A stretch of 64,000 bases of DNA from Amphibalanus amphitrite. Lineage: Eukaryota > Arthropoda > Thecostraca > Balanomorpha > Balanidae. The DNA is taken from contig NW_024881592.1 of NCBI RefSeq assembly GCF_019059575.1, forward strand, positions 682,001 to 746,000. Reading direction: 5' to 3'. Below are positions 473 through 35,890 of the stretch, one piece after another; the stretch's first letter is position 1, and each line of letters opens with the position of its first letter. Below the pieces are notes generated by a model, which did no database searches, was not told where the DNA came from, and was given only the letters and a program-made list of their open reading frames with translations. A program made the translations under genes and the position numbers.

Positions 473-1922
473 TTAAAGGGACTATCCCACCTTTAACCCT
501 AGAACGCCTAGGGGGGGGGGTTGTATCAACCCCCCCCCCTGAGGTTTTTTCGAAGTGCACGCTAAACGGCTTGTCGTAGCGGGCTGAAATTTTCAATACC
601 CTCTGGGGCAACCTTTGCGCATCTTTTGCCGAAAAAATTGATCGGGTCATGTCAGGTCACGGAGTTATGACGTCATAAGAGGTACAGCCTCCGGTCGGAT
701 TTTCACAAACTGAGTGCCAACGCCCGAGGTTTCCTGCCGGTGGTACGGACATCGGTTGATGGATCGTGATGAAACTTCCCATGCATGTTGGGGCAAGTAT
801 TTGCTATCATATGGTATAAGAAATTTGACCGGGTCAGGTCAGGTCACGGAGCTATGACGTCACAAGAGGAACAGCGTCCGGTACTATTTTTGAAAAGCGC
901 CCGAACTACTATTTTGCTAATTCTTGTCACCTCAATGGGAATATGCAGCAATATTAGCTTCTATAGGGAGCAAATGGACCTCCCAAATCCAAAAATACAA
1001 TCAGATTTCAAAAATTTAAATTTTGATTTTTCGAATTTCTGCCGCCGACTGTGACCTTGCCGACTTCCGGCGCTCCCAACGCGCCATTTTTAGAGCTAGG
1101 GAAACGAAATACATACCAAACGATAGAGAATTGATCAAGGAACACGATAGTGAAGGTTTCAAGTCGATATCTCCCACCGTTTTGCCGCAATCGCCGCGGA
1201 AAGTTGAAAAAGTTTGATTTTTTCGGAAAATTTGACCTTTGACCGGTCATAAGTAGGTCAAATGTTGACCTAGGACCAAAAAATATACCACCAATCGCGA
1301 GATCTCGTTGAGAGCCATCCGTTGGTTTTTTCCGCTAAGCTCTACGACCTTCCGTTTCGAAACGCCAGGGGGGGGTCATAACAACCCCCCCCCCCCTGGT
1401 CGTTCTTGTTATGAGAAATGGCCTGGTCGTGCGAGGGTTAACATGGGGTTTGAGTTGAGATAGCCAAGTTTGCGGCGAGGTTCAGAAACCACTATCCGTC
1501 TAGGTTGCAACCCCCGCGGCCTCTTGGTGGTGAAGAAATTCGTTCCCTTCATTTGAAAATGGGCCTTGTACAAGGCCCTATCTTCAACATGGAACGACCG
1601 TTAGTGTGACGTCACCTCGTTTAGTCATTCTGATTTAAATGGGTTTGTTCGTTGAAAAATCGCTTAAAACTTGGTCTGAACTTTGTTGTGGTATCTACAG
1701 AGTAAAAAGAATCAGCTTTATGACAGTAATGTGGCCTGGGGAAGGAGGTAATTTTGGGCTGTGACGTCACATATTTGAAAGTTTGTGTTTGGAATATGGG
1801 AAGCCTAAGATGTTTAATGAAAAATAAATGCCAGAACCGTATTCCTGGTCATCCAATCTATAAAGTCGGGCACAATTTAACTGGTTTTAACAACATTTTA
1901 GAAGGTGGGATAGTCCCTTTAA
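473..1922. mobile_element. TTAA-bounded inverted-repeat element, split by a nested element
   Basis: The ends TTAAAGGGACTATCCCACCT (from 473) and AGGTGGGATAGTCCCTTTAA (to 1922) are inverted copies of each other. A related empty copy lies at 23402-24022 in the opposite orientation. That copy shares the subterminal stretch about a TTGAGTTGAGATAGCC motif, seen here at 1450-1470. Here the element is interrupted at an internal TTAA by the element at 493-1441, and the 23402 copy shows the uninterrupted sequence at the same point. Its right TTAA is shared with the element starting at 1919. It is non-coding and probably a non-autonomous DNA transposon. Confidence 0.8.
493..1441. mobile_element. piggyBac-like non-autonomous element (949 bp) nested at TTAA
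   Basis: It starts TTAACCCTAGAACGCC and ends GTCGTGCGAGGGTTAA, with TTAA at both edges. TTAACCCTAG matches the canonical piggyBac terminus. Just inside each end is a hairpin: about ten Gs, TTG-TAT-CAA, then about ten Cs at 511-540, and a G-run, a TCATAACA loop and a C-run at about 1370-1397. The right end has a second, internal copy of the CCTGGTCGT repeat about 30 bases inside the terminal one, an asymmetry reminiscent of piggyBac. GGTCA repeats and TGACGTCA sites lie near 645-670 and 832-860. No transposase gene is visible. Confidence 0.8.
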
Positions 1923-2131
1923 AGGAAATAGTTCACTTTCACGAAATTATTTTTTTGCAACGGATTTATGATTTTTTATGTTCAAAATAATCAGCAAAGA
2001 AAATAAAACCTTTTTATAACAAAATATTATTTTCTATATTTTCACATAGGAAGAACTTTTCAGTTTCTGTAAGGCACACGCGATCCAGTATGAAAAGAGC
2101 GGTCCCGAAAATTCTTCAGAAACAGAGAAAT

Positions 2132-5100
2132 CAGGGGCGTCGCCGACGGGGGGGTCGGGGGGGTCGTGACCCCCCACTCTTGAAAACTGGGGGTGTCGAC
2201 CCCCCCCCCCCCACTTTTTGCGATGCTGAGTATGCTTTTTTAGCTTTTATGTCAGTGAAGCAGGCGTCAGCAACACCAACAAATACATCAGATTCAAAAT
2301 CGCTTCAAGAGCTCCTTAAAGCCAATTAGCCAATTACCTAAAGGTCAATTAGCTGTGGGCGGGAAACACCAGCACAACAATGTTTTTAAGTAGCCCCCAT
2401 CCTAGTACCTTTTTATCCCTCAAAGGATTGGACGCGCCAAAACTGCCCCGAGCGTTCGTCTGATCGTTTAAAAAAAAAAATGGTCGCAGTCGATTCGTCG
2501 GATCAGTACCTACCTAACTACAAAACTACAAACTAGCCTCAGCCCCATGGCTACCGTCACAACTAGCTGTACAGTGCACATGTAGGGGAAAGGGAGTCAG
2601 ATGGAACCGTCTCGGGCTTTCGCAAAGAAGTCGCGCAAAAAGGAGCCGATTGCAACAAAACTTCCGGTGCGCTCGAGTTAATCACCTATTTAAAATAAAT
2701 CGATATCCCTGATTCAAATAAAGATGACCTTAGTTCACTTTTTCATAACGTGCTTTTAACCCGCGCGGGGCTGGGGGGGGGGTAAATTTTACCCCCCCTC
2801 GCGAATTTTTGCGATATCTCAAAAACGGCGGCGCGCAGCGCCGCCAAACTTTCAGTACCTTTTCTTACATCAATTTGACACCTTCTCTGAAAATTTGAGC
2901 GAAATCCGTCGGAAAATTTTAGAGAAATTGACGTTTTAGTGACATCATGTTCGCCATTTTCGCCTCAAAAACGGCAAAAGTTCAAACGCCGCTAACATCT
3001 TCATTTTTAAAGGAATCAAGACGTAACAAAAAAGCTTATACGTAATTTTACTTTGTCTATCAAATGGCTATCTCGGTTTTTTGAAAATTTTGGATTTTGG
3101 CCTAAATTTTTTCAAAAAACTGATTTTTTTGGGAAAATCATTATAAAATCCAAAATTTTGAGTCTATCGAAAAAACCGGAATATATGTCAGAGAAGTGGT
3201 CTATGTGCACCTACATACCAAATTTTAGAAGAATCGGTTCAAAAATGTGGGAGTTATTCAAAATTGTATGACGTCACGACACACAAAATTTTTGAAAAAT
3301 GACTTTTTTGGAAGTTCTAGACCTCGTACGGAAACAAAAATAGCACCATTCGATTCGCCGTGAAAAACTGCATCAGATAGACACCTTTTTAGGCCTTAAC
3401 AACCAACTTCAAAATTTGACCTCACTTGACCTGACCTTGACCTGACCTCGACCTGAAATTCATCCAGAGGTGGTCCATATCACTTATTGAGTGTGCCTAT
3501 TGAATTCTATGAGTAAAATGACCCATAAAACATGTGTCGCACATGCCCTTTTCTATATTTTGTTTTTTGGTGACCTGACCTGACCTGACCTGACCTTGAC
3601 CTTGACCTCTGAATGATATTGTATGCAACTAATATTGTCTTGGTAGCCTAAGAACACGTTTTGGGCGATCAGTCTCAGTCCATGACTCCATCCTTCGGCA
3701 ACTACGGTGCAAGGCCGATACTGTAGAAACTTGCAATTTGTACCCTTGACCTGACCTTGACCTTGACCTCAAACTTTAAATTAAGTACATGTTTTTAGTA
3801 GTTCGTGATGAGAGCTTTCGATTGGCGTTTGAATTTTCCAAATCGGACCATTAGTTCGGGAGATAACAGGGGGGGTAAAATTTACCCCCCCCCCCAGCCC
3901 CGCGCGTTCGGCTGGAGACCCCAGCCCCGCGCGGGTTAATTGATAGGGTAGTTTTTGGAGCTGATTTTGAACTTAGCGCCCATCTGAACATTTAAGAAGT
4001 AGTTGTGTTGCTTATTCATATAACATGCTAGGAAGCAGTCGGTGGTGGTCATCCACTATTAGGTACTGGTCGATCTGACCTGACCTGATCTACCCCAAAT
4101 GCATGTAGTCATCATCTTCGTTCAAAACTAAGATAACATTCGTAATCAGAACCTCGAAAAACCATCACAACTTACATTCGTTAAGTTCTAGCAGGTTCCG
4201 AGTTTCTCTACTTATTGGCGATGACCTGAGTCCTGAGATGACCCGAAAACTTGTAAACGGGTATCATCGGCTTTCTCTCGTCACGGGCAGCATGCTCTTT
4301 TTTTCCGCAAACCTGTAGATCGATCAGGGGTCGAAAGCATGCCTCAGCGTTAGTTTAGTATACGATATACGTTAGCGACTGGGAAACCACCAATAGAAGG
4401 GCTACAGTGAAGCAGAAAACTATTCGATAGTTCTTTTAACGCTCTTTCGCTAGCTTCGCGTTAGATTTCATCTCAGGTCTATGTTTGGCCCATAAGAAGG
4501 CAAACAGCTAACTGGACAGATTCTGCCGAAACATCTGCTTTGCAATAACTTTCGATTCCGTGAATTTGTATGGTATGTACATATGTTGTCTTGTCACCAC
4601 CGTCTTGATCTCTTTGAGACGCGTCACATGAGTTAAAATTTGACCATTCAGAATTAACGTTAAAACGACCTCAGGTCAACGTTATGTCCTGATCGAAAAA
4701 GGACCTCCTGCTGCATATGAATGGATCCGTGTTGTTGAGCTGAACACTGAACAGTGAACACCTTCCAGGTGCTGTCATCGCTCTACCGCGTCTTCGTCAA
4801 AAGTTGTAGAAAAAAATGCTGGTGGCCATCGATGGACATTTCCACTAATGACCTTTCGAGTCATCACTCGCCATAAGTTGCACCCTGTCCCTGGCAATGA
4901 TGAGCTGATTTGTCATGGCTCCAAAGATATTTTGCGTTTCTGACGAACTTTTTCAAAGCAGGAGGCATTCGTGCTTTTTCTAATTTCTCATTATTTTCTA
5001 ATGATGAGGTCACGTATTTGAACTGCCTTCAGATCATAGATGTAAATCCTCAGTTAGAATCATGAATTGCTGACACGTAGGTATAACCCCATACATTAGG

Positions 5101-6041: not shown

Positions 6042-6053
6042 GATTTTAGGACT

Positions 6054-7617: not shown

Positions 7618-8532
7618 TTAACCCTCGCCCGCACATGCCATTTTCCCATCCTAGAACGCACATGGGGGGGGGGGTTGCCACCCCCCCCGCGCCATTTCGT
7701 TCCTGTTGGAGATAGAGCTTAGTAGTAAAGACCAAAAAGATTCTTTGGGAAGAGACGAATCCAATGATACCCAGTTTTACCTTCTCAGGTCAGTCATTGA
7801 CCTTCCAAGTTCCAGGTCAGGTCAAACTAAAAAATGTTGCTGTTTTGGGTCACCGTTGGATATCAAGTGCGCTGCTTATCAGATACCGATGACGATGCTG
7901 TTTTCTGGTGCCAAGCCAGCTAGAACCTCTTTGTCACACTATCCAACCAGAATTTTGCTGCTGAGGTCATTTCAGGTCAAGTTAGGTCAAGGTCAATTAT
8001 ATGTGTTTGTATGTCTGTGTGTGTCTGTGTGTATACTGATGTGTGCACCGATTGTTTTTGGGTCCATATCACATGAAATCATGATCTGAGAAGCTTTTAC
8101 CAAAAATGCAGTCAAAAAACTTCACAAAAAGTAAATTCAGCTTGCCTAAAACGCAATTATCTTAGATGACCTAGGTTGACCTTGACCCTGACCTTGACCC
8201 CTGTACATCGTCGAACAACATGTTCCATGATAGGTGGGAGGTAAGACTGGCAAAAAAGGCCGAAATCAGGGTGTCAAAAGCTCACAAGGCCCATGGCAAA
8301 CGCAAGATGTTGAGAATTGGCCATTTGGGTCATGACATGACCTGAAAACAAAGTCATATCTCCAAAACCAAAAATCACAGAAACTTGAAATTTTCAGTGG
8401 ACATCAAGAAAGGATAGACGAGCAGCTATACGAAAAATCAGCCTTCTAGCTATAAAAATGTTGAGTGCAGAGCAAAAAGACTGCCTGGGGGGTGGCAACC
8501 CCCCCCCCCCCCCATGTGCGGGCGAGGGTTAA
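7618..8532. mobile_element. piggyBac-like TTAA element (915 bp), young subfamily, copy 1
   Basis: The ends TTAACCCTCGCCCGCACATG and CATGTGCGGGCGAGGGTTAA are perfect inverted repeats with TTAA at each edge. Hairpins lie just inside: a G-run, TTGCCA and a C-run on the left (7663-7690), and a G-run, TGGCAA and a C-run on the right (8490-8515). The left end has a second internal copy of the GCACATG repeat. AGGTCA and GGTCA repeats are at about 7790-7830 and 7965-7995. It is nearly identical to 42218-43122, so the family was active recently. It lies between the 5' exon and the exon at 9047, that is, in an intron. Apparent reading frames inside are not genes. Confidence 0.92.
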
Positions 8533-9185: not shown

Positions 9186-9246
9186 GTAAGTGTATAATCA
9201 TTCCGTTATAGGAGCGTTCCAGGACAGATCACCAAGGCATGTACTT

Positions 9247-10876
9247 TAGGGTGGGGCGAAAAACACTTTTTGGAAAGTGCTAAGTACATCTAGTGAAAAA
9301 CTTGGGCCATAGTTTCAAATGAACACATGCAAAATCTTAGCCGATCGGTCAAGCATAGACATGAGCGTATTTGCGATGGATGAAGATCTGCAAACGCTTT
9401 CAGGCGTTGCAGTCTCTAATGCTAAGGAGCCGTTGCGATTGGTGTGTAACACCGGAATAAAAGCGATTCGCGAGAAAAGACGAGATCAGTGGACTAATGA
9501 TGGCGTATTTCATCAATAATGAATCCCACGGGCCGGCCCAGGGTCCCTTTATCATCAGCATGGATCCGGATCCTGGATCTACCGGATCCCTGGATACAGG
9601 ATCCGGATGTCTACATATATCCTTATATTAGTTTTCAAAGTCAATGCATAGGCTAATTGTTCATCCGTGTATGCCGAATCCTGGATCCAGTGGATGCCGA
9701 AACCTGGATTCACTGGATCCCAGGATCCAGAATCCAGGTAGCTACATTCGTTCATTTGCTGTGTCATCAGTGATAATGGAGATAGAAATTTGCGGTCCAT
9801 TCCATTCGAGTATCAAGGGAGAAGGTGTGCTAAAGCCGGTGCCGTCCACATATTATCTGACATGGATCATCAATGGCTCATAATGAAGAGAGACAGAGAG
9901 AATCGAGCCGCTGAAGCTACAGTCAGTTCTGATGGCTACAATAAGTGTCCAGCTACATGACGGCTCAGGGCTCACCCTGACGGTAGTGCTGAAGCGGCAC
10001 GAAGAAAACAACCTGTTCAAGGACTAGACACAAGCGGAATCCAGTCAGCTTCAGACTGAAAACGTATTTCATTTCAAGCTGGTGTATCGAAGGCAGCTGA
10101 ACAGCTGAACCGTGTCGTTTGTGCTACCGGAAGCCGAAAGGCATCACCGCGCTGTTGGTCATATCGGCGCAAAGCGGCATGAGGACAACCAGCAGCTGAC
10201 AGCAAATCCCCGCCCAATTCGAGAGGCTGGAGGATCCGCTGATATTGGCGAATGAAGCTGCTCTCAGTATCGAGGGCAAACGTTTAGCCAACCTGTTCTG
10301 CGAGAATTCGTACTTGCAGGCAAATTTCTATCTGCCTTATCACTGATGACACAGCAAATGAACGAATGTAGCTACCTGGATTCTGGTCCTGGGATCCACT
10401 GGATCCAGGTTTCGGCATCCACTGGATCCAGGATTCGGCATCCATGGATGAACAATTAGCCTATGCATTGGCCATTGACTTTGAAAATATAATATAAGGA
10501 TGTATGTAGACACCCGGATCCTGTATCCAGGGATTCGTTAGATCCAGGATCCGGATCCATGTTAATGATAAAGGGACCCTGGGTCGGCCCGTGGGATTCA
10601 GTATTGATGAAATACGCCATCATTAGTCCACTGATCTCGTCTTTTCTCGCGAATCGCTTTTATTCCGGTGTTACACACCAATCGCAACGGCTTCTTAGCA
10701 TTAGAGACTGCAACGCCTGAAAGCGTTTGCAGACCTTCATTCATCGCAAATGCGCTCATGTCTAGGCTTGACCGATCGGCTTAAGATTTTGCATGTGTTC
10801 ATTTGAAACTATGGCCCAAGTTTTTCACTAGTTATACCTTGCACTTTCCGAAAAAAGTGTTTTTCGCCCCACCCTA
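9247..10876. mobile_element. hAT-like element with arms of about 540 bp, intronic
   Basis: The ends TAGGGTGGGGCGAAAAACAC and its inverted copy lie at 9247 and 10876. They are flanked by ATGTACTT (9239-9246) and ATGTACAT (10877-10884), an 8-bp duplication with one mismatch. The arms run to about 9793 and from about 10318, and carry clusters of GGATCC, CTGGATCC and CCGGATCC units (9560-9605, 9675-9735 and their inverted counterparts). The loop of about 520 bp has no recognisable gene. It sits in the intron between the exons at 9047 and 11195; without it that intron would be about 380 bp. Confidence 0.85.
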
Positions 10877-11194
10877 ATGTACATACACCATGGCCCCTTC
10901 CAATTCGCTCAAATTTTGCACCTATGATGCCCTATATAGAACAAAAATTTTGACGTGGTTTTTAGCGCTCAGTCGCAAATGGAAAATGCCGATCGCTAAA
11001 CGCTCGCGCTTGCGTTAAAGGGATATCTCGGAATAGGTTAACTGTTCCACGCCAGGTTATCCAGGAAAACGTTTTTAGTTATCCTCTGGATAGAAACTCC
11101 TCTTCCATCCTCCATTAAAACTTCTGCACCTTGGTGGATAGCGCAACGTTTAAAGTAGCATTGGAATCATCTATATTTCTCTCGCTTTTCACAG

Positions 11195-11496: not shown

Positions 11497-12141
11497 GAGT
11501 ACAGTGTAGGAACGGTGTAGGAGTAGTTTCAGTGGATGTAGAGTTTAAACGTACATTCCCGAAAAAAAACAATATCCCAGGTGCTGGAACTCACCTTTCG
11601 TATTTAAACGCTCCATCGTTTACCAAACAAATCTCGATCGCGGAATGTGAGCCCATCACCTCGATCACGGAATGTTAGCTCCATCACCTGGAATATATAT
11701 TTTTTTTCTTCTGGGAATATATCTTCAAATAAAGTGGTGAACGCGAGTGTGCGAAACAAACACGCCAGTGTAATCGAGCTCGCGACCTCCCTGCCGTGAT
11801 GATCACTGGAACTGTTCGCGGGTAGCCATAGCCAGGGCCATACAAAAGTGGCCACAGCCAGGATACTTACGTGTATTGTGTTGTACCGTCAACCAGGGTA
11901 ACTTTGAACGCCTTTTCAGCGGTGGCGCATTGCGGCCGGTCGAGACGAGATTTTATCTCCCAGTTGAGCAGCTCCTCTCAACATGAGATGCAAAATTCTG
12001 TCTCTGCCGGCCGCCAGGTGCCGCCACTGGAATGGCGTTCAGTTCAGTCACCTAGGCGTTCAAAGTGACCCCGGTTTACGGTACCTATTTTATTTTTATA
12101 CGACTTCAGAGTCATCTTGTTTTACTCAAGTATGTTATATA
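11497..12141 (+). other. 3' UTR of the unknown gene and following spacer
   Basis: After the stop codon there is no convincing coding sequence. A short near-repeat (TCGATCGCGGAATGTGAGCCC / TCGATCACGGAATGTTAGCTCC, each shortened here in comparison) occurs around 11633-11690, and a T-rich tract at 11697-11710. The poly(A) signal at 11728 suggests cleavage near 11745-11760. The rest, to the fold-back repeat at 12142, shows nothing I can name. Confidence 0.4.
11728..11733 (+). promoter_or_regulatory. Poly(A) signal AATAAA
   Basis: AATAAA lies 232 bases after the stop of the terminal exon, in the sequence TTCAAATAAAGTGGTGAAC. A GT-rich stretch (GTGGTGAACGCGAGTGTGCG) follows directly, the usual downstream element of a cleavage site. 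Confidence 0.55.
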
Positions 12142-12519
12142 TCAGAATAATATTTATCGGAGTAACTTGAGTGATAGGTACATACTCGTATATATTCAAA
12201 AAAATATATGCAAATACAGGGGCGTAGGCAGGGGGGGGGCACTGGGCCATGCCCCCCCCCCCCCCCTTGGGCGCCGAAGGCGCCCTTTGCGATTGGAGGG
12301 CGCCGAAGGCGCCCTCCAATCGCAAATGCAATTGTGATATAATCGAATCGAAAAACAATCGCGACTGGAGGGCGCCCTCCAATCGCGAATGTGTTTACAG
12401 GGAAAATACGGATGAAAGGCGCCCTCGGAGGACGCCCATTCCAAATACGCCCTCCAAATACGGTTGGAGGGCTCCCTCGGGCGCCCTCCAACCACATGTG
12501 TAGGCTGTAGCTCTCTAAG

Positions 12520-13320
12520 CGTAACGGTGGTCGCCTATGTAAGCCGCTGTCCTGTAAATAAGCGCCCTCTCACCCGAAGGCGCCTTCCTGTAGGTCACCA
12601 CCCTGCTACACATTGCCGCCCTTCTGCTGATCGGCGTCCTCATAATTATTGGCGCTCTTCTAACTATTGCGCCCTCATGTGAAATTTTGAAGGCCGCCTT
12701 TCTCCCTTTTGGCACCCTCTTGTTCAGTGCCGCCCTCCTACCTATTGGTTCCCTAGTCCTTCCTGTTGAATGCTAATCGGGGCCCTTCTCCTATTGGCGC
12801 CCTCGTGTTGATCGCCGCCCTCCTAACCACTGGCACCCTCCTGTTGATCACCGCCCTCCTATCTACTGGCACCTTCCTGTTGACCAGCGCCCTCCGCACA
12901 GACGCCGTCCTGTTCGTGTCATCCTCTTGAGCAAAGGCGCCCTCCTCACCATTGCCACCCCCATTTTAATCGTCACCCTTCCGCTCATTGGCGACTTGCA
13001 GTTGATGACCGCCCTCCCACCTATTGGCGACCTCTTGTTGATCGCCACCCTCCTATTGGTGCTCTCCTGTTCCTCGCCACCCTCTTACCTGGTGGCGCCC
13101 TCCTGTTGATTGTTGATCGGGGCCCTCCTACCTATTGGTGCCCTCCTGTTGATCGCTGCCCTTCTATCCATTGGCGCCCTCCTGCTGCTCGCCAACTTCC
13201 TACCTATCGGTGCCCTACTGTCGAAACTCGGGATGTTGATCGGGGCTCTTCTACCTATTAGCGCCCTCCTGTGGATCGCAGCCCTTCTACCTATTGGCAA
13301 CATCCGTTGATCGCTGCCCT
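12520..13320. repeat. Minisatellite with 18-bp unit (36-bp higher order)
   Basis: Units resemble GCCCTCCTACCTATTGGT alternating with GCCCTCCTGTTGATCGCT. Divergence is high at the left and lower toward 13090-13310. Because the unit is divisible by three, all frames stay open over long runs and produce artificial leucine/alanine-rich or arginine-rich reading frames on both strands. The array lies inside the hAT at 12217-14202 and seems to have replaced much of its interior. Confidence 0.85.
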
Positions 13321-13339
13321 CCTATCATTTATTTACTCC

Positions 13340-13552
13340 TTTGGCATGTTCTTCAACTTAGTCGTTCTATTGCACATAGTTGATGTCTTGCCTGTGAAAA
13401 CTGCCACAAATGAACGTGCATTCAGCACAATGAATGAAGTACCTATACCTACCAAAACTATCTACGCTCTACGATGCATAAAACACGTCTTTGGTCTTAA
13501 CGGATTGATCCTACTTTACGTGCATCATGGCATCTATATGTATTACGATTAA
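13340..13552 (+). pseudogene. hAT transposase C-terminal dimerisation domain fragment
   Basis: The frame ending at the stop at 13550-13552 contains LPVKTATNERAFSTMNEV followed by ALRCIKHVFGLNGLILLYVH. This matches the pattern of the hAT C-terminal dimerisation region: a proline, then a TAT-x-ERxFS core, then a conserved leucine-rich segment ending near an LxxVH. Only about 70 residues remain. The RNase-H-like catalytic core, the BED finger and the rest of the protein are absent, the upstream sequence being replaced by minisatellite. It is a non-functional remnant that independently supports the hAT assignment of the enclosing element. Confidence 0.7.
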
Positions 13553-15033
13553 GTATTGTCAACAGGTTCGGCCGCAACAGCAGGCATCTGAAGTTTCGGT
13601 GATTGAAACTGGTTATGTGGGTACACTGTATGCACCTGTGAGAAGGCTATGAAGGCTGGTCTGAGGTAATTTGGATGATGTTTACGCATCTCGCGCTCCG
13701 GTATCAATCCGATACGGTGATCTGGTGCGTAGATATGCCACCGCCAATAAACTTTTATACATCGACACCCATGAGCCAAGCTTTCTATACAGTTTGTGTG
13801 GCAGCGGCCCGACCAAACCTTAGGTATTTTTTATACCTTCAAATTTGGTAAAAGAGCGAGAGGAGCTTTGAACAGTGATCGTATAAAAGGCGTGCCTAAA
13901 AAGCGGAGGAAAAGGTTGTTTTCAAAAATTTCGCGCGCCTTCGGCGCAGCATTTCAAGACCACTTGACCTTTTGTGACCTGGAGTATAAAGAATACACAC
14001 GATGCAAAATCAATGCAGCACGACCTATACGAGGTTACGCAAAAAAAAAAAACTGGTGGCATGGTAAAAAACGCCTCCCAACCCCCCCCCCCCCCCCCGT
14101 TGAGTGATTTTTTATCTCGCGACCGTATGGCGCCCTCCTTGGGTGAGGTGGCGCCCTCCAAACCCTTGGCCCCCCCTTCGCGATTTTCTAAATACGCCGC
14201 TGTGCAAATATTTCGACACACTTTGCGATAGTCTTTTTCGATGCAAATGGCACACAGTGCTAGTTTGTTAGGTACAACAAAAATCATCATTTTCCATGCG
14301 ATCGATAGAGCCGGATCCTTCACTACGATTATTAAACTAATTTATCACATCAGCGAAAACACTATATGTACACTATTTACTACCATATCTAAGTTTAAGT
14401 ACCTGGACATGGACCTGGACAAGTACCTGTGACTGGAGTCACAGGTATATAAATTTAGATGTGGTAATAGTAAATAGTGTAGTTTTCGCTGATGTGATAA
14501 ATTAGTTTAATAATCGTAGTGAAGGATCCGGCTCTATCGATCGCATGGGAAAATGATGATTTTTGTTGTGCCTAACAAACTAGCACTGTGTGCCATTTGC
14601 ATTGAAAAAGACTACCGCAAAGTGTGTCGAAATATTTGCATGTATTTTTTTTTTTTTTTTGAACATATATGTACCTATCACTCAAGTTACTCCGATGAAT
14701 ATTATTCTGACATTTTATTTTTGTTGAATATGCTATCGAAGCATCATATCGCAGCATATCATAGAAACACAGACGGCATATGAGTCCGTTTCAGTCCGTT
14801 GCAATGGTTGTGATAACGCACGTACATACCTTCAGGAGTTTACATGCACCATGTGATAAAGCTCAGAATAAACGGTCTTTCATTGAACTTGTTTCCTTTG
14901 CAACTCGATAAAAATCACGCGCAGAGTCTTCATATAGAATAGTATTCAATTTGTCGATCGTGCCGCCGTGCACTCACCTGCACTGCGCTTTATCACTTGT
15001 ATCTGCTTGAATGACGTTTGTATAATATTTCAG

Positions 15034-23401: not shown

Positions 23402-24022
23402 TTAAAGGGACCCTCCCACCTTCAAAAAAGTTTATGAATTGGCATGAAAGTGATGTCGCTCGGTTCAGAAAGAGCGAAAACGAATATCTACCAAATTTCA
23501 CCGAAAAATATTCACCGATTTTCAAGATATTAGACTTGAATCTATGACCGGTTTCCACCGGCGGTATATTGAGCAAACAGTGAACATGATGAGGTGCAAG
23601 TTCATATACAGGTGGCGCTACTGGCGGGCAGGGAATAGGAACAGGAATAGGAACTTTTACTTTTGTTTACTTTTTGGGATCTCCGCTGTTCCTATAAGCG
23701 ATTTTATTTGGAAGCAATATTTTGGCAGCTGAAAGTGCGGCACTTGTTGCGCGCAAAGCAGCATATACTGCACCGCGTGCTACAAAACGTTTTAGTCAAA
23801 CATTTAAAAATCGTTAGATATCTGCGCTGACGTCACACATTCAGAGGGGTATTCCTATGCATTAGCCCTCTGAATTCAAAATGCTGCAATTTTGAAATTC
23901 AATATTTCCGATTTAAGGCATTTCTCGATGTTGTGAGTGCCGAAACCGGTACTTGTGAGCCAGGGACCCCATTTTGGCTATCTCAACTCAAATCTAATGT
24001 TAAGGTGGGAGGGTCCCTTTAA
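23402..24022. mobile_element. TTAA-bounded inverted-repeat element, uninterrupted copy
   Basis: The ends TTAAAGGGACCCTCCCACCT and AGGTGGGAGGGTCCCTTTAA are inverted copies. It is the same family as 473-1922, in opposite orientation, including TGGCTATCTCAACTCAAATC near its right end. It shows the empty site (CCACCTTAACAT on the reverse strand) at which the other copy carries its 949-bp insert. No coding content. A TGACGTCA motif lies at about 23829. Confidence 0.85.
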
Positions 24023-25359: not shown

Positions 25360-26553
25360 ATATCCTTCGCCCTGGTGGGGGGGGCCATTTTGGCCCCCCC
25401 CCCTGTGGTTTTTCAGCGATAACTCAGAAACCACTTGAGTTAGCGCCCTGAAACTTTGTATAGCTGTTTATTCAACATTTTTACATCATGTCCTTTTTTG
25501 GGGGGTTCGGGTCAGGTCAGGTCAGGTCACAAGGTCACCAAAACTGACACCACCTCTAAAAAAGTTCAAAGCTCTCTCAAAGGCACAGCTTTTATCCGAT
25601 CGATGTAAAATTTACAGTACTTGAAGATGTCACCCAGCTCTACAAAATGGCTATCTCGGATTTTTTATAAATGTGACCTAAGGTCAGGTCAGGTCATCGC
25701 TGCTCCCCATTATAAGTCAATGGGAGAATCGAAAAGTAGTTGTTTTTCAGCTAAATCGGGCGTGATTGTTCCTATATTTCGTTATTGAAGTGTCCTGGGT
25801 CAGCAAATCACAGCCCATGTGAAACCATTTGCTTGTGACCTCGCTGAGGTCACGCTAGGTCATCTCCCTGGTGACCAGAGGTCACCAGCGGTTTTTCTGC
25901 ACTTACTTGTTATTGAATAGAGATAGAGACTCCGTTCGACGTTTATCGTGTTTGTCTCGTCAATGCGGATCGAATGATATGCAGCATGACCTATTTCGGT
26001 AAGGTCATGACCTTGACCTGAGGTCAAATTTTCAAAATGACCTTTCGAGGTCAAACTATATATCATTCGACGCGTCTCGACGAGCCAAGCACGATGGTGC
26101 ATGAATCGTTTCTCTATTTTCTCGTGAATGCATGCTATAGTTAAAAACATTTTCAACGAAATTTGCCAAGTTGACCTTGCATGACCTCTGTAGGCCAAAC
26201 CGTTGAGCTGAGGTCAAATCTGACGAACCTTGGCGAAAGAGCTTGAAAAGAGCTATCGATTGCTTTTTTCCGCGGCTCTCTAGCTCTTCTAGTTTCCGAG
26301 CTACAGCGGAATATGTCCGGCAACACCGAAAACACTGAAATTTGACCTATGATGACCTCTAGCGACCTCAATATTGACCTTAGCGAAAAAATGACCGAAA
26401 TACTTTCGAACGTACTTGTTATGGGCTTTCGTTTGCTTTTTTCCGCGTCTTCCTAGCCCTCTTCGTTTTCGAGTTAGACGGGGGGGGTCATTTTGGCCCC
26501 CCCCCCCCCACCAGGGCGAAGGTGGCTCAGACCCACACCAGGGCGCGGGATAT
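25360..26553. mobile_element. 1.2-kb member of the TTAA family with ATAT at both ends
   Basis: The layout matches 34695-35890 (1194 against 1196 bp): TIR, G-run/C-run hairpin with CCATTTTGG core (25377-25403), GGTCAGGTCAGGTCA repeats (25509-25530), CCCCATTATAAGTCAATGGG (25707), and a second hairpin (26480-26510). The right end again has a duplicated TIR: ACCAGGGCGAAGG, then CCAGGGCGCGGGATAT. The left end reads ATATCCTTCGCCC and the right (other strand) ATATCCCGCGCCC, where the relative has TTAACCCGCGCCC. Both edges thus carry ATAT instead of TTAA. No coding sequence. Confidence 0.75.
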
Positions 26554-28118
26554 GATATCCTCATCCCTGTGAGACGTTATTTGTGCCCTCAGTCGGTAAT
26601 TCGTGACGGCCTGCCTGAAAGCCCCCCCCCCCCCTCCGTAGTTTCTGCCCTTGTGTGCAAATACCCACGGGATACGAGGGCGACACCGGACCCTCGCCCC
26701 TGTGGACAGGGGGTGACCCCAGCGGTGGAGGGGTCGTCCGCGGAGGGGAGGGGTGTCGGAGGAGGGGAGAAACAGCACAGATGGACTCGCGCCCTGCCAC
26801 AGTGGACAGGAACCAGGGACCCGCCTGGGGTAGCTCTGCAGAGCTCGCAAACATTCGTTGACCAAGCATTTCCTGATGGTGGTACAGTGTTTTCAAAGTG
26901 GTATTTCCTTGCGTGTGCGGGTTATCGACTGTTGATTCTGTTTCATAACTAATTTACGCAGATGTCCGTCGAACTCTATCGATTGGTGGACCTGTTGTTT
27001 TCGTCGGTCGGAGGGTGAGGGTAGCTCCGCATTATTTACCATGCCTGCCGTCGTCCTGCGGTGATGTGAGGTTGAGGGAGGGATGGAGGGTGCTGGGGGA
27101 TGGAAGTGGAACCCATGCAGTGTAGGGACGATCCGACTGAGTATGACCTCGTGCATATGATGGCTTGTATGGCCGCCTGCCGCGCCCCGTCTCCCTCTAT
27201 AATTCGGTTCACATTGAGATAGAGGCAGCGAATCCGCTTCTCTGTTTTCAATCACTCATTGTTTATATTTCGCCACGACGTCTACATTTTGTGCCCCCAT
27301 CCTCGAGCTGAGAGCAATCCGCCGCCTCTTCAACATACATTTTGCAGTCATATATATTTCAGTTTTTATTTTGACATTTGCATCCAATCACCGATGGCAT
27401 TTGCACTGACCTCTGACGTCATCAAACCTTGTATCCGAGCTATGCCAGACACTCCGGGCTGCCACTGCCGAGCACCCTATCTTCGGTAAGCAAACACGAT
27501 GCCGCTAATTACTGCAGAGGCAGCCGGCCAGTCTGTGGGGCCTGGTTAGTGTTATCAGCGGGCCTGGTGCAGAAGTGACTGGTAATGTAGAAACAGGATC
27601 TGATGTGGGTGATGTCTGAAATCAAAAACTCAAGTAGGATGCGTTTTAACCGTACTGATCCAGAGACTGGTGTGTTCAACGTAGTTTGCATGTCGGTGCG
27701 ATATTACTATAATTATATGTCCGTCATAAGTAACCACCCTATAGGAGCCTTGTGTGGCTTCCTACCACAAGTCGCCACCGCAAAATGGTATAGGGTGCTG
27801 TTTCCAGTAGGGACTATGCTCTAATATCCTCAGTGCACAGCAAAACTCAAAGCAATATTGAGAAGTTGCAAGCAAATGCACATCCATCTGTTTACCGTCC
27901 TAGCGTAACCCTACATATGTAAATCGCTTCCACAACCCTGACTGCAGGTTCCTGACTTACTGGCTAACGTCGAGTCAATTCCCACTGCGCCTGGTTTGTG
28001 AACCCCTGGTAACTTCCGGTGAGCCCGTGCCGGGGGAGGGGCGGGGAGCGGGAGGGAGTGGGAACAGGTGGGAGCGCCCGGCCGCCCCAGAGTCCCACGG
28101 GGTGTCCGTGCTCCCAGT
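26554..28118. other. Gene-free or unrecognised stretch
   Basis: It contains a C-run (26622-26635), the GC-rich segment 26640-26830 and moderately AT-rich sequence. Short frames exist on both strands, but none has recognisable domains or convincing splice borders. A TGACGTCA lies near 27414. Confidence 0.35.
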
Positions 28119-28127
28119 CCCGCCGGT

Positions 28128-29536
28128 GGTGTCACATGCTAAGCTGCTGGCTAAGCTTGCCCTCTACGGAATCGACACTGAGTGGTTTCGTAGCTATCTG
28201 TCCGGCCACACGCAGCAGGTCCGCGTGCAGTCGACCGGAGGGCGTCATTTATTGTCTCGCACTCGAATGAACAGCATAGGAGTATTCCAGGGAGGAGCGC
28301 TCAGCTGTATCCTCTATATGCTTTTTGCAAATGATTTGAGCCTGAGGCTGCCCAGTGACGTCACAATAGTGCAGTACGCCGATGATACGCAGCTCCTAGT
28401 GTCCGGCCGTAAATGCGATATCCAGAGGCTTATCGGTAGCATGGAGGACGCGCTCTGTCATGTGTATGACTGGTTTTGCCACAACGGCATGAAACTAAAC
28501 ACTAAAAAGACACAGATGATCGTGCTAGGAACGCCTGCAATGCTCCGAACACTGTCGCCTGTCGTTGTCCGTTTTTGCGGGGACATGATTACCGACTCGA
28601 GAGAGGTCAAGAACCTCGGTGTGTACATCGACCGTCACCTCAATTTCGAAGCTCACGTGACATACATCTCACGGAAATGTACGGGTATTCTGATAGGGCT
28701 GTCACACGCGCGTCACGTGCTACCGAAACAGACATTGAAGGTGATTGTGGAGGCGCTGGCGATGTCAGTGGTGCGATATTGCCTGTCCGTGTACGGCACA
28801 TGTGGTGTGACCCAGCTCGGCCGGATTCAGAAAGTTGTTCACTTTTGTGTTCGAGTCGTGACGGGCAAACGACGCTTTGACCATGTCAGCGGGGCGCTGC
28901 AGGAGCTCCGCTGGCTGAACGCAGAGCAGCTTGCTGCCTACCACACTGTGTGTGCGCTAGCGCGTATAATTGAGACGGGACAGCCTGAGTACCTGTACAA
29001 CACCATTGGACCGAGAGCGGACCAAAGGCATGCCCATGCAACACGACAGTCGGGGCTAATCACATGCCCCAACATTCGTACCGAAGCTGGAAGGAGGAGA
29101 ATGTGTTTTCGGGGAGTGAGATTACTGAACAGTGTGCAAGCTGTTCCCGGCGAGCCTGGGTTCCGCCGTACTGTCAGGCGGCTCGTGAGATCGGCTGTTT
29201 GTTTGTTTTGTTGGGTTAGGCCCTTTCGGTCGACAAGACCATTGCAGAGCCGGAAGGATGGTAGGAATTAGGGGGAGACATTGGTCTGGGCAGGCACCCT
29301 AGTGAGTCGCCGGGGCTGAGCCCGTCTAAAGACAGGCCACCCAGCCCCAAGGCACTCACTGCACCCGGCTACGGGGTGCGCTCCATCAGGAGCAGCGGTG
29401 CCGCTCCAAGGGAGCAGCCCGCAAGAGATAAAGTTGCCTGTCCAGCCCGGAGGGGGGTTGCGGCGTGGAAGAGAAGGATTTCAGTATCCTGAGGATAGAA
29501 GCACGGATAGGTCAGAGATCGGCTGACGCGCTGTGA
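28128..29536 (+). pseudogene. LINE reverse transcriptase, 5' truncated and interrupted
   Basis: An RNA-dependent DNA polymerase fragment of a LINE that would prime on nicked chromosomal DNA. It lacks the endonuclease and reverse-transcriptase motif A, so it cannot be active. About 357 codons are open to 29197 with no internal stop. The frame then runs into the reverse-oriented insert and acquires a false C-terminus (VCLFCWVRPFRSTRPLQ) shared with the isolated insert copy at 38656. Joining 29197 to 29526 gives the true end, Arg-Ser-Ala-Asp-Ala-Leu-stop. The open frame suggests the copy is fairly young. Confidence 0.8.
29198..29514 (-). mobile_element. SINE-like retroposon, copy 1 (317 bp)
   Basis: It is flanked by the 11-bp direct repeat GAGATCGGCTG at 29187-29197 and 29515-29525, and the host LINE frame is restored by removing it. 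Read on the minus strand it starts ACCTATCCGTGCTTC and ends in the A-rich tail CAACAAAACAAACAAA. The same start and tail occur in the copy at 38656-38975, so both look full length rather than randomly truncated, which favours a SINE over a LINE tail. I found no clear tRNA A or B box, so its origin is open. Confidence 0.85.
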
Positions 29537-29669
29537 GCAGTTGGTGTATGTATGATGGGTTTGTGTGTTTAGTGTAAATGTGTCCTCATTGTGTCCGCAT
29601 TGTAACTGACGTAGAAGAATGAAAAGCCATATTGTATGGATTTCTTTTGAATACATCTGTATCTGTATC

Positions 29670-31472: not shown

Positions 31473-31480
31473 AAAGTCTT

Positions 31481-34400
31481 CCGAAATTGTGCAGTTAAAG
31501 GAGTCGAAACTTGATTTGCGGATGGTCACACAGCTAAGAGATAAAAGAGGGAGTAAAGGCGGAGAGTCGAGACTGGCTGGTGATCAATTTCTCTTGGGGC
31601 TTGAGTGAACGAGGTGTGCTAAAAGGCACTTAAAAGGTTTCCTGATCGTTCGTGTGGGCGGCGGTGGTAAAAGGGTCACCGTAAGGTCCGACCGTGAGCT
31701 ATGCGATGGCGTGCATAGCACTAACGGTGCCGACGGCCTTGGTTTGGAGTGATCAACAATTGGTGATTGTAAAACCGACACTCGGTGCTTGTTTGTGGAC
31801 TGGTGCGGTAGGAGAGGCTCCACGGCAAATTTATTCTACGATCTTGAGAAAGGACTAAAATATTCCAGATGGCGTTGTATTACTTGATCCTTTGTGTGTT
31901 TTTATCACGTGTAGGTTTATTGTGCAATGTGCATACTTTAGATTTGCCATGCACCCAAATGTTGTACTCGTATGCGCACTCTACCACAGTGTACCTACAG
32001 AGCTGCGCTTTGCCTGCAGCTACCTGTCACTATGCGTATGAAAATCGCCACATTGATCAGACCAATTAGTCGCGCCCTCTATCAGCACCGATAATGTGCA
32101 CAGGCCCGCCGGCGGTCAATATTGTCACACGCGGATACCAGACCGATCCTGACCGACTCCCACAAATGTTTTCGATAGTGGACACCGGATATTGAGTTCA
32201 GGAGTTTTGTGATTACCAACGTTTTGCTACATATTACCTAAAGAAGGGTCGGTGTGTTGAGTCGCGTCTGTCGATTACATTGTTTCCTATGGATTTCACT
32301 TGTCTTTGAGGGGATATGGGGTTCTTTTGGTTTGGCAGTTGACCGATGTGAAATGTGTTTGCATTAGTACGGCCGATTCCCGCACGCACTCGAGAAAAAT
32401 GAAGTCTCAGACCTCCCCTGAACAGAAATTCCACACTGGTCACTGCATCCCAATTAGACGGGGCTAAACTGGAACCGTATCCTTCAGCCAATGAAAACAA
32501 AAACAAGTCCCGGGAGAGACGAGTGCTGCAGTGAAGTGGAGCCAGTTATCACCTGTCTCTGGGGAATGTATGTGGGATATTTCGATACGGACAGCGCTAT
32601 ACATTGGGTCCATGTTTGCAAAAGTTCATGTTTCAGTTTTCTACTTTCTTTGTTGGTGACATTCCATCTAGCAAAGCACAGGACAGTTTCTGCCATTTTT
32701 CGTCTTCCGGGTAACATGAAGTTTTTTTTTAATTCAGGGACTTTGCAAGGGGGGTCGCGGGTGTCCGGATTCCCCAATAACTTGACTTTCGTAATGTAGC
32801 CTAATGTACAAGGGTGTACATGTTTTGGGCTTGAACCCCCAATCCTATGACCGTGGCCGAGCCCATGCCTCAAACACCTTCGAAGGCTCAGTTCAAAAAC
32901 ATTTGCGATCGGAATATGCACCTGAGCTACGCCCACATCGACTTGCAAAAAGAAAAAAGAAAAACATTTAATATTGATAATGGGCTAAGTCTCTGGCCAA
33001 TAGCCATAACCACATTTGTACAGAGGCTCCAAGTTACATGTGTATTGTGTTGATTATGATTGCTGGTGAATGCGGTTGATGTGCATTCATCCTGATTCCT
33101 GTGTCGACCTGAGGCTTTGCCATGCTTATCCAGAACAGAGAAACGCCACCAATCATCATACGTCTCCCTGACTGCCCGGCTGTACAGTTCCTCGTGAAAG
33201 TAAACCAACGAATTCACGTGCTGAGAAAACGTTCATTCAACTGCTCACCAGCGCGTGAACTGCATCGCGTTAATGCCCGTCGCGCAGAGGACCAGAATCT
33301 GACGTCTCCAGTCTCCCTGCTCGTTGTTAGCTCTCTGGTAATGATCCGGCTGAGCCCTGTACCAGCCTTGGGGCGTCGACAGACCGGTTCTGGTGTTGTG
33401 GTGTCTGTAAATCTGCGGTATCAGAGGTTCCATCGGGGCCGGTCGGCGGCGAGCCGTGTGCAGTGTGCATGCCGCTAATCTTCAGCGCCCGGCAGTCGGT
33501 GCAGCCAAAGGTAAAGCGAGGGTACAACGCCTCATAATGACACCCGCAAAATTGAGCGATGTAGTCATAGTCGGGAGCGTTGCAATCACGCCCCGTTGAA
33601 AATGTTCCTCTATAGCGTATGTTGGATGTGATGAAATTTGAAAATGCAGATCATCAAAAATGTCCACTGTCGGCACTGAGCCGACAGGGGCGCCTGGAAC
33701 TGGTGTCTCTTCATCTCGTGGCGCCTTTAGGGCGTGATCGTCGTCAGAATGGGCAACTGAATCGGTGCTCGACAACCGCGCTCAGCTACCACCTCATTAT
33801 GCACGAGAACTTGATGCTGGTTCTTATAAATCATGCATTATATTAGGCCTGTAAAATTGGATACCTCCAGCGTTATTCCAGCGTTTTCCTGCGACAGGAA
33901 TGACATTAGTCATCCGGAAGGCAGTGCCATGCACGTGACGGCGGCTAATGGTGGTGGTGCCGCCGGCGTATTAAACGGCTTCACGCAGGGTTTCGCGCCC
34001 TGGTCCTCCCTCTCCGGCCGGAAACGGCTGGCGTCCGGTGTGGTGTTCCGCAGGGGTCGAGTTCAGGGCCGCTGTGCTCTGAACCGTGTCAGAGCATAGA
34101 TCGGAAGCTTGATGGCCCACAGAGAATGGGGAAATGACCTCATATCTCATGGAAAGATACGAGTATGTTTAGGTTGTTCAGTGGCATACATAAAATGCCC
34201 TCCTTGCGTTAAACGTTAAGCATCGGCTTTATTTTTTTTTTTCTCCTCCGACCAATCTCACTAGTGTCGGTTCCAAACTGTGACCGATTCGTCACACATC
34301 TGTTAGCGATATCGCTGTCGATAGTTCCAAGAACACAACACCTGCGTCGGTATCGCCGCACTCTCTGAATCTGCCAGAGAGAGTGGCGGACTCAATAGCT

Positions 34401-34694
34401 GTGCCATGATGAGATGAATCCTTTCAAAATTGAATTCTGTTTAAAACCGGCGATGAGTGACTGAGGTAGGTATGTTGTGATGTTTTTGACAAAGTAGCGT
34501 GGAATGATAACTGATACATATGACAGTCTAAATATTCCTTCGCCGCGTATAAGCTACCTTTGACAATTTTACGCTGATCTATGGTAGCATTTCCAAAACA
34601 TTTTGCCTTGTTTCACATAGCCAGCATTCTGGTATGCTGCTGTTTCAAAGGCCGATCGATTTACGTACCAAAGCCCCACTTCCACTGAGGTGCA
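31481..34694. other. Unrecognised stretch
   Basis: I see short overlapping frames on both strands (for example 32484-32948 minus and 33122-33478 plus) but no domain, no reliable start and no clear splice pairs. No tandem repeats or inverted-repeat elements were found. Diverged genes or exons could be present but cannot be supported from sequence alone. Confidence 0.3.
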
Positions 34695-35890
34695 TTAACC
34701 CGCGCCCTGCTGGGGGGGGGGGTGTTTGAACACCCCCCCTTGTGGTTTTTCGCGAATATCTCAAAAACGGCGGCGCTCCGCGCCGCCGTTTTTGGTACAC
34801 CTTATCATGCATCAATTCTACACATGTTGTGAAAATTTCAGACCAAGGTCATTCAAGGTCAGGTCACCAGGTCACTTGAAGTGACCTCACCTCATAAAAA
34901 GTTTCAATGTCTGTCATAGCTACACCGAGTGACCGATCGCTTTGAAACTTTCAGCGATTGCTAAGAGCAATAGCATGTACAAAATGTATATCTCAGAATT
35001 TTGATATCGATGACCTAAGGTCAGGTCAATTTTGCGACCTCCCCATTATAAGTCAATGGGAGAAAATTGAAATGCGTCTCTTTTGGACGAAAGACATTAT
35101 AAACACTCCCAAACACTGAATTACAAGTGGTTTAGACACACTGAACATGAAAATGGTGTCCGTGACCCCTGTTTATGCCCTGAGGTCATCTTAGGTCACG
35201 AATGGTATCTAACAGTTTTTCGCAAATAACTTTTGATAGAGGCATGCTAGAGCGATGAAAACACATTAGATGTGTTCAGCTCGACGATACGGATCGACTG
35301 ATATGCAACATGACCCTTTCTGGTCAGGTCATGACCTTGACCTGAGGTCAAATTTTCAAGTTGACCTTTCAAGGTCAAGTTATAGTTCATTCGATGCGTC
35401 TTGACGAGAGGAACACGATGCCGGTAAAAAAAGCTCGTACAAGGCTTGGGTCAAAAGTTATTGCAGAAAAACTGTTTCCGAAAAAATCGGCTATTTTTGC
35501 AGTTTTTGCCCCCTGCAGGCAAAACCGTTGACGTTAGGTGAAATCTGAGAGAATTACTCAGAAAGGGCGTTAATAGGGCTATCCAATGCGCTTTTCCGCG
35601 GCGCTCTAGCTCTATTGGTTCCTGAGTTATGCGTAGGCTTCTTGGAAATTTTCGACATTCGACCTGGAAATCGGCGAAATTTTGCCTTCAATGACCTCTG
35701 GTGACCTGACCTTTGACCTGACCAAAAAATTGACCGAAGTGATTTCGTCATTATTTTTGACGCTCTTTCGAACGCCGCCTTCTGCGTATCGCTACGTGGC
35801 CCAGGAGCCGAGTTAGAAGGGGGGGTGTTCAAACACCCCCCCCCCCAGCAGGGCGTGGAAATCCAGGACCCCCAGCCGGGCGCGGGTTAA
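34695..35890. mobile_element. piggyBac-like TTAA element, 1.2-kb subfamily
   Basis: It starts TTAACCCGCGCCCTGCTGGG and ends AGCCGGGCGCGGGTTAA. The left hairpin core GTGTTTGAACAC (34720-34738) and the right core GTGTTCAAACAC (35825-35840) are reverse complements. The right end has an internal TIR copy (CAGCAGGGCG) about 45 bases before the terminal one. GGTCA repeats lie at 34857-34875, 35018-35030 and 35322-35370, and CCATTATAAGTCAATGGG at 35043. It is closely related to 25360-26553. No coding sequence. Confidence 0.88.

Follow-up and report, generated by a model that had tools for sequence, protein, structure and literature searches.

What reads the ends of six small elements that carry, just inside both tips, a stem of Gs and Cs around a core that differs from one element to the next? 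We addressed this question for a 64,000-nucleotide stretch of Amphibalanus amphitrite DNA (hereafter the window), in which the six elements, E1 to E6, had been noticed in a preliminary description. With about 0.9–1.2 kb and no genes, they are best read as small, non-autonomous, MITE-like relatives of piggyBac. It is very probable that they are mobilised in trans by a single clade of transposases whose genes lie elsewhere in the genome, with CRD dimers sitting on the palindromes; the G-run/C-run palindrome is most likely the predicted gripping site of the piggyBac zinc-finger tail (CRD), in an unusual homopolymer form. All six elements and all twelve hairpins were confirmed in the window, where the elements reach to position 43122 and not, as first described, from 493 to 35890 only. 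The features are as follows, with palindromes listed without strand:

493..1441, plus strand: E1, non-autonomous piggyBac element including both TTAA; left end short, right end long
511..539: E1 short-end palindrome, G10-TTGTATCAA-C10
1368..1396: E1 long-end palindrome, G8-TCATAACAA-C12 (plus strand)
2756..3939, plus strand: E2, including both TTAA; left end short, right end long
2773..2798: E2 short-end palindrome, core TAAATTTTA
3869..3895: E2 long-end palindrome, core TAAAATTTA on the plus strand
7618..8532, minus strand: E3, including both TTAA; left end long, right end short
7664..7688: E3 long-end palindrome, core TTGCCA
8487..8513: E3 short-end palindrome, core TGGCAA on the plus strand
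25360..26553, plus strand: E4, element proper 25364-26549 with ATAT at both flanks; left end short, right end long
25377..25403: E4 short-end palindrome, core CCATTTTGG
26480..26509: E4 long-end palindrome, core TCATTTTGG on the plus strand; direct, not inverted, relative to the left core
34695..35890, plus strand: E5, including both TTAA; left end short, right end long
34712..34739: E5 short-end palindrome, core TGTTTGAACA
35819..35846: E5 long-end palindrome, core TGTTCAAACA on the plus strand
42218..43122, minus strand: E6, including both TTAA; left end long, right end short
42264..42286: E6 long-end palindrome, core TGGTTGCCA
43071..43103: E6 short-end palindrome, core TGGCAACCA on the plus strand
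185..235, minus strand: E0, end of a seventh element running past the window start; by eye, tip and interior as in the short end of L158, palindrome lacking the outer G-run
55962..56030, plus strand: E7, decayed short end, by eye kin to the TTAACCCTATT ends of L137 and L172

No partner end of E7 was seen in the following 2.5 kb. E3 and E6 belong to one family (95% identical), the core TTGCCA of the former having become TGGTTGCCA in the latter through a change from T to G, the new G joining the G-run. Among 10 of the 78 window open reading frames of at least 110 aa, Pfam matches were obtained for three, all to reverse transcriptase or endonuclease, and none of the 10 matched a transposase; Rfam and tRNA searches of the window found nothing.

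The hairpins stand far above what shuffled sequence yields. TTAACC-anchored hairpin ends number 10 in the window, against a mean of 0.03 and a maximum of 1 in 100 dinucleotide shuffles of it, and G7+/C6+ hairpins number 13, against 0 in 100 such shuffles. Run lengths in the twelve hairpins are 6–15, a slightly wider range than the 7 to 14 initially given. Moreover, palindromes occur at 121 distinct ends within the 100 genome sequences examined, and their presence is thus not assembly noise, a concern that had been raised about the G/C runs. The tip TTAACCCGCGC occurs 46,791 times in the genome compared to 142 times for a reversed control; when 30 loci were retrieved by this tip alone, 21 had a palindrome at it by our own rule and the other nine had no clean palindrome (decayed, truncated or none).

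In each of E1 to E6 one end is short and the other long, and the palindrome lies 27 bp further inside the long end. Genome-wide, this offset is exactly 27 bp in 35 of 41 pairs, every pair having a hairpin at both ends (42 pairs were listed, from which one spurious E1-E2 pairing was removed). Note that short and long ends are defined by the palindrome offset itself, the palindrome starting at bp 13–15 in 62 of 62 short ends and at bp 39–43 in 54 of 58 long ends. The core is 9 or 10 nt long in 92 of 131 ends (not deduplicated). The tip motif is repeated in the long end with an identity of 0.99 for the E2 tip, 0.79–0.90 for the E5, E4 and E1 tips and 0.74 for E3/E6; across families the repeat ranges from weak to clear (0.22 to 0.99), although at offset-39 ends, whose values are among the lowest, the fixed register is possibly one base off. 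Inside the palindrome the sequence differs between the two ends, while the displaced palindrome retains its core. By arithmetic from the ends, the distance from tip to palindrome centre is mostly about bp 25–33 and shifts with the length of the G-run, compared to about bp 25 in T. ni piggyBac; a rigid complex should not tolerate such variation, unless run length is post-insertion noise. The tips start with CCY and have a terminal repeat of about 13 bp, both traits of the piggyBac superfamily. The short/long asymmetry had gone unremarked in the preliminary description.

That description had called the outer ends piggyBac-like and suggested a search for an autonomous relative with the same ends; piggyBac transposases were indeed found in copies with the ends of E1 (L166 and L167) and of E4 (C33). 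L166 (1843-5817) and L167 (215-4185) carry both the long and the short end of E1, and agree with E1 in end plan and cores except for one base of the long-end core. The open 646-aa transposase frame of L167 (1631-3571; PF13843, E 2.2e-69) aligns with T. ni piggyBac (6x67; E 2e-78) over residues 89-638, including the CRD, and its motifs VDE, ADR and GVD fall against IDE, CDN and GVD, which we take to be the catalytic DDD. E1 and L167 have their outer 389 and 315 bp in common (91% and 94%); for the middle of E1, about 245 bp, no match was found in L167. C33 combines the ends of E4 with an open frame that includes a CRD, and its two flanks match E4 1-511 and 510-1192 at 98.8% and 99.1%, which makes E4 an internal-deletion derivative, as expected of a MITE. 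Among the genome copies examined, none that carries a transposase was found for E2, E3/E6 or E5, and in L134, a 4.6-kb member of the E3/E6 family, by-eye inspection of the open reading frames revealed no transposase.

Using cysteine patterns of our own definition, we found CxxC..CxxC..CxxH..CxxC in only one of 30 transposase loci (L113) and also in L167, C33 and C702a; the other 29 loci were negative, 22 of them with a different cysteine pattern and some with truncated frames. A tree of 14 transposases places L167, L113 and C33 together on one side of a 100/100 branch. In the flank examined of the clade member C778 (L113) no hairpin end was found, and for C702a and C552 a single hairpin end each was found, assigned by nearness. 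The palindrome is retained across transposase lineages that are 38% identical. Sixteen tips of other piggyBac lineages were inspected over 60 nt each: one proved to be a long end of the hairpin family with its palindrome beyond the 60-nt cut, and the remaining 15 included two strong palindromes (L086 left, with 1 of 300 shuffles as good, and L112 right, with 0 of 300). Thus, over the 60 nt examined per tip, not all piggyBac lineages of this genome show a clear palindrome. Other candidates were discarded. The hairpin near a transposase at L097 faces away from it and is part of a neighbouring element; at L105 a common piggyBac element is nested within the hairpin element, and the transposase is not the latter's own; and the 77 stretches returned by a scan of viral contigs with a degenerate tip were taken as chance, because the tip has few fixed bases and the collection is very large.

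The target site duplication is TTAA for five of the six window elements, as first described, and ATAT for E4, which had been counted in the TTAA family. Of 344 genome tips matching the long tip of E4, 284 follow TTAA, 12 ATAA, 9 ATAT and 39 other sequences; TTAA is the main insertion target, and a minority of insertions are at ATAA or ATAT.

The preliminary description held further that left and right cores are reverse complements of each other in most elements and that the cores change in step, as if a protein or a strand-pairing step matched the two ends. The cores are indeed reverse complements in the elements at 2756, 7618, 34695 and 42218, but not in those at 493 and 25360: read inward, the cores of E1 are TTGTATCAA and TTGTTATGA, and those of E4 are CCATTTTGG and CCAAAATGA, which match better in direct sense, as do the cores of C702b. 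Across 12 families the mean agreement of left and right cores is 0.892 compared to 0.480 when permuted, with 0 of 100,000 permutations as good; the two cores of L137 agree poorly (0.56). Families thus do show the change in step, as one would expect of a single protein reading both ends. It was not seen copy by copy: in the E3/E6 family, the sole family with enough copies for such a test, the association of the two ends was not significant (6/6/2/4, Fisher p 0.64, n 18). There is thus no support for matching or strand pairing of the ends copy by copy, although a weak link is possible.

These data bear on three other explanations. The preliminary description's own idea was that the ends form a real DNA hairpin or cruciform (or a quadruplex-like structure) needed for transposition or amplification, core agreement reflecting strand pairing of the ends. 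Long G-C stems are strong inverted repeats, as such a structure would have, but strand pairing would need strict agreement in every copy, and E4 and C702b agree in direct orientation, the cores of E1 differ and the E3/E6 copies show no significant association. Moreover, a core held mostly to 9–10 nt whatever its sequence is needed by a protein dimer and not by a hairpin loop, and the palindrome at the same place in T. ni piggyBac is a protein site; we consider the explanation quite improbable. Somewhat less improbable, but still unlikely, is that core agreement is ordinary extension of the terminal inverted repeat from the founder of each family, the G/C palindrome having no function beyond belonging to the end. 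A founder effect followed by amplification would yield matching ends in each family. The ends are not simple inverted repeats, however, since the palindrome is shifted 27 bp in the long end with its core retained and the inner sequence differing; most cores are themselves partly palindromic (some at just 4 of 9–10 positions), and the palindrome has been kept in transposase lineages only 38% identical.

A homopolymer artefact of assembly or sequencing would account for runs that differ in length between copies (5–15 Gs and 4–18 Cs, the lower limits being those of the search), and for that variation slippage and sequencing error cannot be separated here. As to the presence of the palindrome, an artefact is refuted: cores within the runs are consistent across many loci and contigs, the offset of the palindrome is fixed, and none of the 100 window shuffles contained a G7+/C6+ hairpin. 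The probability of an artefact is negligible.

We therefore favour mobilisation in trans by CRD-bearing transposases. Transposase-bearing copies were found with the ends of E1 and of E4, and the 27-bp short/long plan, the T. ni-type CRD cysteines of this transposase clade and the family-wise agreement of cores were also observed; E2, E3/E6 and E5 would presumably have transposase partners as well. The catalytic core would recognise the tip as well as the tip-proximal motif; in a transposase dimer, each CRD may bind one half of the palindrome, bending it at its centre. The repeated tip motif of the long end, 27 bp deeper, could load a second transposase dimer, as a result of which one long and one short end would be paired in the synaptic complex. 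The G/C runs may be half-sites that were expanded or left noisy by slippage, and left and right cores would agree because the same CRD reads both. We raise only tentatively the idea that the 9–10-nt core, framed by constant G/C arms, serves as an address and that every transposase lineage (58% to 38% identical to that of E1) recognises its own core. If so, a dozen or more end types might coexist in one genome, their families kept separate despite near-identical tips.

PiggyBac is widely used in genome engineering. Here, many matched natural variants of its ends occur in one genome, keeping the 27-bp asymmetry while the palindrome core changes, together with at least two, and probably more, transposases that match them, so that CRD-core specificity and end orthogonality become directly testable. 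In addition, the tips of a T. ni-type piggyBac clade have expanded very greatly in this genome, and ATAA and ATAT serve as natural targets. The asymmetric ends of piggyBac were termed enigmatic by those who solved its structure (PMC7351741).

In open-access literature, as judged from titles and the beginnings of abstracts, we found no report of G-run/C-run piggyBac palindromes. Coral CMITEs resemble the present elements as MITEs tied to piggyBac-like elements with several families per genome, but they measure only about 100 bp, their interior being conserved and their terminal repeats variable, and the available part of their description mentions no G/C palindromes (PMC2872659). PiggyBat of Myotis lucifugus, of the same superfamily, has imperfect palindromes beside a repeated tip-proximal motif that are bound by the CRD (PMC11707139); there they lie at the left end only and the CRD is of another fold, whereas here they lie at both ends and the cysteine pattern of the CRD is like that of T. 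ni (PMC8086355 was consulted for CRD types).

The closest likeness is to T. ni piggyBac. The preliminary description supposed that such hairpins are not a standard piggyBac feature, yet the ends of T. ni piggyBac, LE35 and RE63, have a duplicated motif and a palindromic 19-bp repeat, with a CRD dimer on bp 17–33 (PMC7351741). Both systems have a TTAA target and a CCC tip, the first 8 bases of E1 (CCCTAGAA) being those of the T. ni tip; both have a short and a long end with a duplicated motif, differing by 63 - 35 = 28 bp there and by 27 bp here; and the transposases are homologous, with an identical CRD cysteine pattern. The palindromic internal repeat has a 9-nt A/T-rich core in T. ni, its left end reading GCG-TAAAATTGA-CGC, and GGG-TAAATTTTA-CCC of E2 likewise has a 9-nt core. 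In contrast to the mixed 5-base arm given for T. ni, the arms here are G-runs and C-runs of about 7–12. Tips here number in the tens of thousands, far above the 116 transposase matches scored in the genome. What is unusual in these elements is thus the homopolymer arms, the many cores that vary by family and the occasional ATAT and ATAA targets.

The six elements that the preliminary description had placed in the window (G000:C95:682001-746000; genome searched, 807.6 Mb) are present, and inside both of its ends each carries a core flanked by a G-run and a C-run (together, a palindrome or hairpin). TTAACC-anchored hairpin ends numbered 10 in the window, compared to a mean of 0.03 and a maximum of 1 in 100 dinucleotide shuffles. 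These elements, and other structures that we noted in the window, are as follows (forward-strand positions).

493-1441, hairpin element E1, nested in another repeat (465-1930) with inverted ends TTAAAGGGACTATCCCACCTT and 29-nt arms that are 97% complementary
2756-3939, hairpin element E2, a distant relative of E5 (75% close to the left ends)
7618-8532, hairpin element E3, of one family with E6 (95% identical)
9239-10884, large foldback structure with arms of up to 297 nt, distinct from the hairpin elements
12139-14713, large foldback whose outer arms are 66 nt long, with arms of 93 nt nested at 14203-14640, likewise distinct
23402-24022, pair resembling the inverted ends of the repeat that hosts E1
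25360-26553, hairpin element E4, a distant relative of E5 (66-79% over parts)
27904-29268, LINE-type reverse transcriptase frame
34695-35890, hairpin element E5
42218-43122, hairpin element E6
43318-46018, LINE-type reverse transcriptase, across two frames, with an endonuclease domain
46022-47167, all six frames open together over ~1 kb, probably a tandem or low-complexity repeat

The hairpins are real and abundant. The tip sequence TTAACCCGCGC occurs 46,791 times in the genome (142 for the reversed control), which at two tips per element suggests some 20,000 elements, while a 20-mer of E3/E6 and a 22-mer of the E1 short tip occur 5,625 and 1,591 times, respectively (control 0 for each). With TTAACCCGCGC as the sole criterion for choosing 30 loci, the rule G5+, core 3-14, C4+ identified a palindrome at that tip in 21; it identified none at the other nine, where the palindrome is decayed, truncated or not visible, and tip counts therefore overstate the number of intact ends.

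A feature that the preliminary description missed is that the two ends are unlike in all six window elements. In the short end the G-run begins 13-15 bp from the tip, whereas in the long end the tip motif comes twice, the second copy often resembling the first, and the G-run begins 27 bp deeper. Besides the window we surveyed 99 genome loci, a non-random sample chosen by tip or by transposase; these 100 sequences yielded 131 hairpin ends, or 121 without overlaps: 62 short, 58 long and 1 intermediate. After one spurious pairing across E1 and E2 was dropped from the 42 short/long pairs listed, the offset difference in the remaining 41 was 27 in 35, 26 in two, 30 in two, 29 in one and 23 in one. 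The 27-bp step occurs in families of differing sequence. (Note that E4 also has the 27-bp step but is absent from these counts because it lacks TTAA.) Three same-kind pairings were listed, two in locus L122 and one in L160; L122 201-3251 has a short end of the E3/E6 family on either side and an E5-like end within, and possibly represents truncated or nested copies. Back-to-back element pairs with one common TTAA were seen at L137 1501/1504, L148 2679/2682, L160 308/311 and 1501/1504, and L167 215/218. Median lengths of the outer G-run were 10 (short) and 11 (long), and of the inner C-run 7, from which we infer that the tip motif supplies about four Gs and the palindrome arm seven, with slippage. 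The variation in tip-to-centre distance is the chief argument against a rigid complex.

The genome contains at least 116 matches to the transposase domain PF13843. TTAACCCATTA-type ends are present in 22 of the best 30 of these loci, and the 1.5-kb flanks of all 30 showed no G/C palindrome of the transposase's own element. Contigs C44 and C527 (loci L166 and L167) hold ~3.97-kb elements bearing E1's own long and short ends. The outer 389 bp and 315 bp of E1 match L167 at 91% and 94%, with no match found there for the ~245 bp in the middle. L167 has an open frame of 646 aa (PF13843, E 2.2e-69) that aligns with Trichoplusia ni piggyBac (6x67) at E 2e-78 across residues 89-638, C-terminal cysteine-rich domain (CRD) included, and with piggyBat (9c0f) at E 3.2e-30; in L166 the frame changes close to the C-terminus. 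A protein search with the E1-type transposase gave 71 matches, with 68 of 313 candidates scored. Among those scored were three copies of full length (98-100%, with a TAA in one of them), two at 96-99% that stop near residue 585, C778 at 58%, C702:42168-44031 in two frames (58% and 53%), C33, C257, C431, C702:36117 and C552 at 38-39%, many intermediate fragments, and other lineages at 27-29%.

The C33 copy has E4's ends, and two parts of E4, of 511 and 683 bp with a 2-bp overlap, match its two flanks at 98.8% and 99.1%, respectively; E4 thus looks like a recent internal-deletion derivative. In the C702 58% lineage, whose transposase is split over two frames, both element ends carry a G/C palindrome (read inward, TCGAACGGA in the short end and TCCGTTTGA in the long). 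One palindromic short end each (CCAATTTG and CGTTAAACG), 1.3-1.7 kb from the N-terminal side, was assigned by nearness to the C702 39% lineage and C552; no second end was seen in the flanks examined, nor any hairpin end in the flank examined for C778. Transposase-bearing partners for E2, E3/E6 and E5 were not found among the loci examined.

The frames of L167, C778 (L113), C33 and C702a end in CxxC..CxxC..CxxH..CxxC, as in the 6x67 alignment. This pattern occurs in none of the 29 other loci among the best 30 of at least 116 PF13843 matches, of which 22 have another cysteine pattern and seven neither, some through shortened frames. A tree of 14 transposases separates its three clade members from the rest at a 100/100 branch; C778 was put in the clade by sequence and not by its ends. 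Two other piggyBac lineages (L086 412 and L112 3469) have a strong A/T-centred palindrome near one tip, that of L086 being a perfect 20-bp palindrome, GTGTCCTCATATGAGGACAC.

E4 has ATAT on either flank, and its long tip occurs 344 times in the genome: 284 behind TTAA, 12 behind ATAA, 9 behind ATAT and 39 otherwise, part of which may be truncations or mutations. Moreover, the C702 58% lineage is inserted in an E5-like copy, with E5 1-357 and 354-996 matching on either side and overlapping by 4 bp (354-357, ATAA). Together, these observations indicate that the clade uses minority targets. This insertion (L170/L171) is a clean filled-site case of a non-TTAA target.

The proposal that the cores covary between left and right ends held between families but was not supported among copies of one. 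For 12 families, with cores picked and typed by hand and without the decayed pairs of L143 and L160, identity between a family's own short and long cores in the better orientation was 0.892, compared to a permuted mean of 0.480 and maximum of 0.748; none of 100,000 permutations reached 0.892, a strength that is overstated because the families are related to one another. The own partner core ranked first in 10 of the 12 and second for L137 and E4. Within E3/E6 we took 20 fetched and two window copies, dropping one with two short ends and three with an unreadable or other state; the 18 remaining (T/T 6, T/G 6, G/T 2, G/G 4) showed no significant association (Fisher p 0.64), though in so small a sample a weak one may exist. 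As to orientation, the direct one gives the better agreement in E4 and C702b, the two are equal in L147 and E1, and the inverted is better in the other eight. Such a mixture would suit a symmetric dimer site rather than a strict inverted repeat.

The best explanation of the hairpins is that they are palindromes of the CRD type in piggyBac ends, as shown for the E1 and E4 families and, as we infer from the shared end plan, also in E2, E3/E6 and E5. T. ni piggyBac has asymmetric ends, LE35 and RE63, with LE bp 7-35 almost identical to RE bp 34-63, and in both the CRD binds a palindrome-like internal repeat of 19 bp; the structure described has bp 17-33 of one end in contact with a dimer of the CRD, which bends that end by ~40 degrees at an A-tract (PMC7351741). 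The LE oligonucleotides in that source contain CCCTAGAAAGATAGTCTGCGTAAAATTGACGCATG, whose palindrome, GCG-TAAAATTGA-CGC, has a 9-nt core, the same length as those of E2 (GGG-TAAATTTTA-CCC), E1 (TTGTATCAA) and E4 (CCATTTTGG); that of E5 is 10. Across the 131 ends, cores were of 9 nt in 59, 10 in 33, 6 in 23 (mostly the TTGCCA form of E3/E6) and other lengths in 16, with an A/T-rich centre in many but not all (exceptions, TGGTTGCCA and TCGGATCCGA). On this comparison, the G/C palindrome is best read as the internal repeat. Three features are unusual here: arms that are homopolymers, a variety of cores within one genome, and relaxed targets. The piggyBat element is described as having palindromes too, on its left end (PMC11707139), whereas the A. 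amphitrite elements have them at both ends.
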